Shown piece after piece: positions 45,612 through 52,303 of a DNA stretch of 64,000 bases (position 1 is its first letter; each line of letters opens with the position of its first letter). The stretch comes from Isoetes taiwanensis (taxonomy: Eukaryota; Streptophyta; Lycopodiopsida; Isoetales; Isoetaceae): contig JAJEKV010000096.1 in assembly GCA_021234155.1 (NCBI GenBank), positions 2,169,678 to 2,233,677 of the forward strand, given 5' to 3'. Made by a program: the position numbers and the translations under genes. The notes below the pieces were generated by a model, which had not been told where the DNA came from, did no database searches, and saw only the letters and a list, made by a program, of their open reading frames with translations.

Positions 45612-45850
45612 CACAACAAGAAAAGGGTCATTTAGCGACGTTCGAAGCGACGCCTGCGCGACGTCGACGGCGCCGCACGACGCCTCACAGACGCCGCAGG
45701 CAGACATCGCCGATGCGACGCGGCGTCGATGACGACGCGTCAGCGCCGCCGCCAGACGTCAGCAGACGCGGACTCGGGGACGTGACTCGGGACGCGGACT
45801 CGACGGCGCCGACGTCGCGGCGACGGACGCCGCGGCGACGTGGTGTACGG
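45612..45850. repeat. 5' terminal repeat and CG-dense subterminal region of element B
   Basis: After the terminal repeat the sequence is packed with cgacg, gacgcc and gacgtc motifs up to about 45847, followed by an A-rich run of about 45 bp. Such clusters are the usual binding region for the CACTA helper protein. Confidence 0.65.
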
Positions 45851-46068
45851 AAAAAAAAAAAAAAAAAATAAAAAAAATTAAAAAAAAAAAGGGAAAGAAT
45901 TTTAATAGTTAGTTACAATATCATATACAAGAGGCAAGAGGCGAGTAGTGGCTATCTTTACGTGTTCCTTGTTAGGGGAAAACCCGTGATAGCCAATTCT
46001 ATAACAATACGACCAATATTAGACAATGACATTGAAAGTTAACGTGAACTAAGAGTTTATACACTTAC

Positions 46069-46474
46069 TTAATCTATGTAAAAGCCTTTTTCGGCCGCCA
46101 ACCCAAGTGAGACCGGAATTGCTTTGTTTGAAGTTGCCTTGGCAGTCCGTGAGGCGTGATGTTTTTCTTGGAATCCTTTGCAACGCTCGAAAAGTGATCC
46201 GATTGCAAGGAATACAACATGACAAGTTAAATGTCTTATTTGAATTGAACTAATGGCAACAAATAACAAATACCTTGATATCTTCCTTATGGACGATTAA
46301 GTGGTTTAGGACCTTTGACCAATCGCCTCCCAATTTTTGGCATTCGACTTCAATTTTGCAATCACTCTTTGCCTTTTCTATAAATCGATAGATTAACACA
46401 AAACAAAAGAATAAAAATAAGACTATGACTAGGTCATGTACCTTCTTTTTCAAGCACTCCCCCCCATCATCCAA
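46069..46474 (-). pseudogene. Possible CACTA accessory protein fragments
   Basis: Two minus-strand pieces. 46250-46474 includes KLGGDWSKVLNHLIVHKEDI. 46069-46269 includes ERCKGFQEKHHASRTAKATS. The second has a loose likeness to the Ptta/En-Spm family pattern of basic residues before a Ser/Thr-rich stretch. Each is under 80 codons and they are out of frame with one another, so this is a weak call. Confidence 0.3.
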
Positions 46475-46587
46475 AATGAGCCCCTTCCAAACCGGATTAG
46501 TTCGGATTAAAAGCCAGAGTTGGCTAACATACGCTTTAGGGTTATAAGCTAGATTTGGCCACCTCTACCTAAGAATTACAAGAAAAG

Positions 46588-46880
46588 TCGACTTGGACCC
46601 GAACACGGGTCGCCTCCACTGTAGTGGAGCCTACCGGTGCCCTTGAACAAGCCACTACAATTTTATTTTAAACCTAAAAAATAACAAGTGGCTGTGGACT
46701 TGAACCCGGGTACGTGGGCCTCTCCACTCTAGGTGGAGCCGGCCATGCCCTTGAACAAGCCACTCCTTAACCTAGGAAAAATATATGATCGTGAGTGAAG
46801 TGGACTTGAACCCGGTACATGGTCCTCCCCACTCTAGGTGGAGCCCAACCGCGCCCTTGAACAAGCCACTCCATCAATTT
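46588..46880 (-). repeat. Three tRNA-like cassettes (element B)
   Basis: On the minus strand each copy reads in tRNA order: an acceptor-like ggagtggc, a D-arm-like ttgttcaagggc, an anticodon-arm-like CTCCAC...GTGGAG hairpin (46614-46629, 46722-46738, 46825-46843), and a T-loop-like gggttcaagtcc. The third copy ends ccacttc, which could pair with ggagtgg allowing one G-U. The spacing is 102-109 bp. The T stem is poor, so these are degenerate tRNA or SINE-head copies, not working genes. They correspond to the set at 17.46-17.76 kb. Confidence 0.55.
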
Positions 46881-50800: not shown

Positions 50801-51720
50801 TCGGGACGTCGACATTGCCCTGGGGACCAAGTTTCATGGCCAAAAGACCACCCCTTCTCGAGGTAGCGTCAAACTATCTCATGTCCAACACACTCGTAGT
50901 CAATTGGCCTAGGAGGTGGCTGTCGAATACTGCAACGTAGGGCGTAAGTGTTTCTTTCTTTTGCAAAACTGACCGTGCAACTTGGTCTCTAGGGTAATTT
51001 CGGCCTCCCGGACGATGTGGCGAAGTCGAATCGCCATTCCGGAGCCTCCGCAATGTCCGAACGACAAAACACTTTGGTTTCTACACGGTCGACCGCAGGA
51101 CGCTTCGCGGTTTGATAAGTTCTCCCGGACGGATGTTGGATTTTTTTGGACCTTATCGAGCCAGGGCCCTTGAACGAAGGATTCAACGGTCGGATAGGGG
51201 AACCGAGATCCGGGAGTGTGGTCTTTAGCGTACGGCCCTCCGGGGGAGCGCTGCCAGGAAAGGCTGCCTCGGGAAACTTTTTGTGGCTCGCCTCTTGGGG
51301 TTCGGACTCTCCCCTCTAATGAGGCGGCCTTGCAAGGTCCTGGCCTTGTTTGACTTGGGCAAGTGTGCCATTTAACAACAGTCAATTTGCCGGGACCGTA
51401 CTAATGCAAACACTTTGATCTAAACCTTGTCTGGAAATTTTGAAAACTGGCATGTACGTTGGCGATGACTTAGGAAGCCTGCTGACAAAAAATCAGAATT
51501 TAATTCCTTACTATGCATTAATTACGAATTTATGAATGTCTTGCTACTGCCCAACAACAGGCTGCCTAGACCGTTCCAATGCTACCTATTTGATCAGAAC
51601 TTTATCCGGAAATTCTAAAAATTTGCCTGTATGCTGGGGATGACCTAGGAAGCCAACTGACAAAAAATCAGAATTTAATTCCATACCATGCATTAATTAC
51701 GAATTTATGAAGCATGAATG
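47877..51720. repeat. Tandem satellite array 2, about 3.5 units of 1.08-1.11 kb
   Basis: The landmark tatgcattaattacgaattt recurs at 48241, 49321, 50433, 51512 and, after a short unit of about 176 bp, 51688. Blocks align in order with array 1: tctagaacacggcagcccac against ctagaacctggcaactcata, and cgcctcttggggtccggact against cgcctcttggggttcggact. It is a clear subfamily, with many fixed differences from array 1. It lies wholly inside element B and begins right after two copies of atgtttgagcct. It appears non-coding. Confidence 0.93.
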
Positions 51721-52045
51721 CAAAAGAATGCATAACTAAAAAATTCTCGCATCGAAAAAAAGGTGGAATTTTGACAAGGTGCAACGTGCGGTCTTGCGGA
51801 CATGAGAAAAACATTTCACTAGGATATGCAAAGTGTTGGTGCACGATGAAATAGCTCCGAAGTCTTCCGAGCTCACATGCCGCCACAAAAGTTCTCTTTA
51901 CGAAGGCCCCGGCGATGGACGAGCAATTTCCCTCTCCAAAACCATGATTTGGCTCTTCCAATGAACTTCGAATATCGACATTACCACAGGGACCAACTTT
52001 CGTGGCGAAGACCACCCTTGTTCTCCAAAAGAACAAAGTACACCA
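51721..52045. repeat. Diverged terminal fragment of the satellite
   Basis: From about 51890 the sequence cgaaggccccggcgatggac, later gcgaagaccacccttgttct, is a worn copy of one satellite block. It ends at the same internal phase (just after gaagaccac) as array 1 does at 11640. The part before 51890 is not recognisable. Confidence 0.65.
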
Positions 52046-52049
52046 GACG

Positions 52050-52303
52050 TCCATCGACGTCGCATGCGACGCCACGTCGCACAAAAGTGACGACGCGATG
52101 CGGCGTGGTGGTCGAGGCGTGGGCGCTGGCGTGGCAGACCGCCACGCCGCGGTGTCGACGTCGCACCACACGCCGCGATGCGACGCGGTTCCGGCGACGC
52201 GACGCCGCATGGCGACGCCGCATGGTGGCGTTATTTTGCGGCGCCACGCCGCACGCACGCCGCAGAAGCCCCCACGTCGCTAATTGTCCATTCTCTTGTT
52301 GTG
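52050..52303. repeat. CG-dense 3' subterminal region and terminus of element B
   Basis: Dense gacgcc, cgacgc and cacgccgc motifs, with cgacgtcgcatgcgacgcc at about 52054. It ends cccacgtcgctaattgtcca then ttctcttgttgtg. The block from cagaccgccacgccg onward aligns with 22381-22541, so both are 3' ends of one transposon family. Confidence 0.75.

Follow-up and report, generated by a model that had tools for sequence, protein, structure and literature searches.

The 6.7-kb stretch at 45612-52303 of the window (the whole 64,000 nucleotides of Isoetes taiwanensis DNA that were analysed) was found to consist of inverted CACTA-type ends flanking approximately 3.5-3.6 copies of a 1.1-kb satellite, and is probably a non-autonomous CACTA-like element that has captured the satellite array in its right half. 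As read from the sequence, the satellite would travel along with the element when transposase made elsewhere acts on the element ends. The transposase part would have been lost and the satellite gained between an internal block and the right subterminal region, possibly through repair or recombination at a palindromic 14-mer (CGTCGCATGCGACG), and the array would afterwards have been amplified or homogenised locally. The way in which satellites come to occupy new places on chromosomes is an open question, for which a cut-and-paste carrier of whole units would, if true, provide a direct route. Since the window offers one example without a target duplication, the element is presented as a lead and not as a demonstration.

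The facing ends of the element read CACAACAAGA..AGCGACG, with the forward strand starting CACAACAAGAAAAGGGTCATTTAGCGACG and the reverse strand starting CACAACAAGAGAATGGACAATTAGCGACG. The left terminus (CACAACAAGAAAAGGGTCATTTAGCGACGTT, 45612-45642, plus strand) was located by sequence reading, alignment and a terminus scan; the right subterminal region and right terminus occupy 52055-52303 on the minus strand and include a copy of the 14-mer at 52058. In comparisons over 31 bp (maximum score 31), the termini at 45612 (plus strand) and 52303 (minus strand) scored 21, the ends at 52303 and 22547 scored 29 and those at 45612 and 22547 scored 23, the end at 22547 belonging to a related, transposase-bearing region. 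The scan sampled approximately 25,600 positions per query, at every 5th base on both strands of the window, and the next-best sites after these three were a remnant near 21459 (13.5-17.5) and then sites scoring 13.0 or less. The remnant (21419-21459) is one of the right terminus, 90% identical over 41 bp to 22501-22541 with the final bases missing. The terminus pattern also turned up in one bacterial contig and four viral contigs of other collections, and these occurrences were taken as chance.

Terminal inverted repeats of the kind used to recognise CACTA (CMC/EnSpm) elements are therefore present at 45612-52303, and both termini read CACAA instead of the intact CACTA motif that serves as a criterion for both termini in the available text of Belyayev et al. 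(2022; PMC8978399). Motifs of the form GCGACG/CGTCGC and CpG clusters adjoin both ends as direct and inverted subterminal repeats; the left subterminal region (45643-45850) is CG-dense, and the stretch 45612-45844 shares 64% identity with 52090-52303 read as its reverse complement. Six-frame Pfam scans of 45612-52303 gave nothing above the cut-off, tnp2-type transposase included, and one match below it (E 0.046) in 45612-47999 on the minus strand. The 3-bp target duplication anticipated by the initial annotation is absent, the flanking bases being CGC (45609-45611) and ATT (52304-52306), so that movement as one piece lacks its telltale sign. Its absence favours an alternative that is possible but rather unlikely, in which a satellite fragment is flanked by an element at approximately 45612-47690 and, independently of it, by a truncated right end at 52055-52303; these termini would never have been partners and the satellite would not have travelled inside a transposon.

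The main reason for taking the ends at 45612 and 52303 as one element is an internal order common to both loci, namely a repeat block, other DNA and a right end, with the satellite filling the middle in 45612-52303; this order argues against unpartnered termini. The right end at 52303 is 85% identical to 22373-22547 over 184 columns and, in a longer alignment, 77% identical to the 22547 end over 258; the corresponding right subterminal region and terminus of the transposase-bearing region lie at 22299-22547 on the minus strand. The internal repeat block (46594-46870, plus strand) aligns on the same strand with 17452-17745 (62% identity in 298 columns, E 1e-11), a match that none of 200 shuffles equalled. 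The latter copy sits approximately 2.3 kb upstream of broken transposase remains identified with Pfam at 13496-15188 on the minus strand. These comprise tnp2/Transposase_21 (PF02992) at approximately 14608-15188, in two frames, and DUF4218 at approximately 13496-13780, both on the minus strand; the tnp2 stretch had no match at E 0.001 among 232 candidates in the protein collection. The initial annotation had stated that the first 22.5 kb hold CACTA transposase remains and end in the same terminal repeat, and both statements were upheld. Between the internal block and the left end, 45860-46590 did not resemble the transposase region, 17 of 50 and 26 of 50 shuffles having scored as well. Two side observations concern the transposase-bearing region: a short run of telomere-like AAACCCT units lies at 17389-17442, beside the 17452-17745 block, and a minus-strand B3 DNA-binding-domain fragment, possibly a captured host gene piece, lies at 19395-19586, with the transposase remains on one side and the 22547 end on the other (31.7 bits, just above the Pfam cut-off of 30.1).

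A second CG-rich block at 47520-47690, left of the array, contains the palindromic 14-mer twice (47563 and 47645). Within this neighbourhood, none of 500 shuffles matched the left terminal region as well as 47600-47725 does; the block looks subterminal, and two elements could thus have run together, as the alternative of separate ends proposes. That alternative also draws on the sequence to the right, where a six-frame scan of 52304-57300 gave no Pfam match that would continue the Gypsy-like trace found on the other side. It would nevertheless lead one to expect a right terminus near 47.7 kb, and the 15 top-scoring sites of each query included none there. The nearby ttatagcgacgt block, which occurs in two copies in the window, was rejected as a decayed right terminus, 54 of 500 and 46 of 500 shuffles being as good for the first copy and 415 of 500 for the second, so that the second copy is no better than chance in that role. 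The Gypsy-like trace itself is an integrase tail (SH3_Tf2-1, minus strand, approximately 43181-43330) beside a TCAATC microsatellite, together spanning 43008-43330.

Besides the two ends, CG-rich DNA with GCGACG/CGTCGC motifs was found at 47.4-47.8, 18.0-18.4 and 22.0-22.55 kb. With copies at 47563, 47645 and 52058, the 14-mer lies on both sides of the satellite array, and the transposase region has a single near-copy, at 22194, within its right subterminal part. Position 22194 is also the site of a 17-mer, CGACG[C/T]CGCATGCGACG, which recurs with two mismatches or fewer at 47560, 47642 and 52055, a placement that hints at an insertion between two 17-mer copies. When the 17-mer was excluded, 38 of 500 and 16 of 500 shuffles were as good for the left-side context against the transposase copy, and 424 of 500 and 291 of 500 for the right-side context. 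Joining the array flanks gave a score of 124.5 against the 22-kb right end and the right flank alone gave 125.0, a lack of gain that again fits separate ends. A clean empty site was rejected, the match being carried by the 17-mer alone and the joined flanks giving no gain. Because the context vanishes without the 17-mer and the joined flanks fit no better, the point of satellite capture is something that we infer rather than observe.

The array inside the element was delimited by profile search and unit tree at 47874-52040 on the plus strand. It contains three full units starting at 47877, 48955 and 50076 (1077, 1120 and 1074 bp), followed by a 399-bp partial unit (51152-51550), a 165-bp piece (51547-51711) and a terminal piece (51882-52022, extending to approximately 52040). 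The terminal piece, taken as 51882-52040 and considered as a possible fragment of array-1 type, is 76.5-81.8% identical to array 1, the array at the start of the window, and 75.3-80.3% identical to the second array, in which it lies. The 170 bp at 51712-51881, within the second array, were without a match to the satellite models. The units also contain an inverted repeat with arms of approximately 75 bp (48628-48849 and at the same phase elsewhere), which corresponds to minus-strand profile matches in most units of both arrays and was seen by BLAST too. No Pfam family was found in the frames of the monomer that were scanned. Derivation of the satellite from the transposon was considered and rejected, as the profiles matched nothing in the window outside the arrays at E 1e-3 or better. 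Array 1 (51-11638, plus strand, profile search) comprises nine full and two partial units of the same satellite and has its left end beyond the window. The initial annotation was thus correct in assigning the array at 1-11640 to this satellite and in describing terminal inverted repeats and CG-dense subterminal DNA (ends scoring 21 of 31) around about 3.5 copies of it, here three full units and pieces.

The DNA beyond both ends of 45612-52303 is non-satellite, so that the array is confined to the element. Two elements striking a pre-existing array should have left some satellite beyond 45612 or 52303, a further point against unpartnered termini. The distribution also bears on a second alternative, that this is an ordinary dispersed satellite into or next to whose arrays the transposon family tends to insert; array 1, abutting the transposase element, would then be the typical case and 45612-52303 a chance nest. 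No satellite was found between 22548 and 47.87 kb, although some would be expected from 22548 to 47.8 kb after insertion into an array, and we regard this alternative as improbable.

In favour of this alternative, array 1 ends at 11638-11640 and is followed by bases (CACCCAACTAAGAAA..) that resemble the left terminus (11640-11670, plus strand), so that the array apparently lies outside the transposase element. In three tests 5 of 500, 1 of 200 and 1 of 500 shuffles were as good as this likeness, and the site is the best unexplained match for its query, at 12.0 of 31. Another terminus query, however, scored 13.0 at approximately 25035, where no element is recognised, and the match at 11640 is therefore weak, which also lessens its value to the dispersed-satellite alternative. 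The terminus-like sequence suggests that array 1 adjoins the transposase element from outside. With a possible left terminus at the array edge, the first 22.5 kb could not be confirmed as the one element that the initial annotation had envisaged; no target duplication was found for 11640-22547 either (GTT and TTG).

Comparison of the two arrays was consistent with a common source and separate later histories. Profiles built from the second array stop the two arrays at matching positions (835/836 and 437/437), whereas with the array-1 profile array 1 ends at column 420 and the second array reaches 435, 15 columns apart in 1,113. The continuation of the second array matched internal units of both arrays with scores of 22.5-34.5 (all three second-array units and the four of nine array-1 units where the anchor could be located), but the end of array 1 scored 5.5-15, amounting to no match to internal units, and the second array accordingly runs slightly further. 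The end phases thus nearly agree, which suggests a common source, and their exact identity, as originally proposed, varies with the profile. For sequence common to both loci past the array ends, two tests conflict: in one, 370 of 500 shuffles were as good; in the other, no shuffle out of 200 was, and 4 of 200 random places were.

The array edges share two further features. The ttatagcgacgt block lies left of the second array at 47667-47715 (plus strand) and is similar to 11693-11740 (0 of 500 shuffles as good), and two 20-bp atgtttgagcct phrases, also common to both loci (0 of 200 shuffles as good), stand directly ahead of the second array at 47836-47875 (plus strand). Block and phrases together occupy 11693-11830 (plus strand) beside array 1. 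The motif and phrases reported earlier are therefore truly shared, but their order differs, since they are right of array 1 and left of the second array, on opposite sides. A circular or tandem cassette, joining the array end to the block and phrase side, was tried for the swapped order and rejected (37 of 500 shuffles as good).

The identity of full units is 66-77% from one array to the other, 77-93% inside array 1 and 88-90% inside the second array; with one partial unit added per array these ranges become 62.6-77.4, 72.2-93.4 and 84.3-92.2. In a tree of the 12 full units, from which the two tabulated partial units were left out and in which four of nine inner branches are open, the three second-array units form one clade against the nine of array 1 with a support of 100/100. 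As the arrays are separate clades, each was amplified or homogenised on its own. The earlier proposal that the array grew after insertion agrees with this tree to the extent that local growth or homogenisation would give one clade of three full units.

A CACTA-like element with an internal array remains the best reading of 45612-52303. The initial annotation went further, to a transposon family defined by such an array, and the window does not support that generalisation: facing ends enclose just one of its two arrays, the other is apparently outside, and there is no target duplication. A broader model is improbable: a right-subterminal capture site marked by CGTCGCATGCGACG would take up satellite and host gene pieces, captured satellite would expand at each locus and seed arrays beside the element, and the CACTA-like family would be the vehicle of the genome's kilobase satellite. 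If carriage is true, the two arrays, already separate clades, are its testable products.

Elsewhere in the window, a direct repeat at 40413-40665 and 53511-53767 (86% identical), an unclassified dispersed repeat, flanks 45612-52303, and inverted copies lie at 52776-52849 and 56298-56371 (96%). FAD_binding_4 and BBE domains were found at 34420-36442; a 429-aa berberine-bridge-like frame at 34087-35373 has its nearest matches in Selaginella, fungi and rotifers, with at most 49% identity among the 120 proteins listed. A direct repeat at 36630-36810 and 36992-37172, 98% identical and 362 bp apart, is probably recent.

Among the open-licence papers listed by the literature searches, none on a satellite-carrying CACTA element in ferns or lycophytes was noticed. 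Among DNA transposons bearing tandem repeats, the available texts on Crassostrea gigas describe non-autonomous Helentron elements with satellite-like repeats (PMC7492417; PMC9659126); these belong to a different superfamily, and their tandem repeats are the central repeats of the elements (PMC9659126). A CACTA-like element is likewise tied to a satellite family in Jozin, whose tnp2 gave rise to the CficCl-61-40 satellite with a monomer of approximately 40 bp, according to the accessible part of Belyayev et al. (2020; PMC7320549); unlike that tnp2-derived monomer, the present one has no Pfam family or window match outside the arrays. A close parallel is Chenopodium quinoa, in which four CACTA-like elements contain satDNA arrays according to the available text of Belyayev et al. 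(2022; PMC8978399); its authors propose that such elements capture satellites and spread them, so that the principle of a satellite-carrying CACTA element is already published. Both cases have a satellite array of several kilobases within a CACTA-like element and a related array elsewhere without a tie to such elements (in C. sosnowskyi for the published case); the 171-bp family of C. quinoa is also reported inside or near CACTA-like elements, as a dispersed satellite might be. The C. quinoa array has a 171-bp monomer in 32.5 copies (5550 bp) near the 3' end of a 16523-bp element with coding sequence, whereas the single example described here has a 1.1-kb monomer in approximately 3.6 copies, no transposase and CACAA termini, and its array would lie on the upstream side if the orientation of the neighbouring transposase remains is taken as a guide. 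A kilobase-long monomer in a transposase-less carrier would extend the C. quinoa principle.
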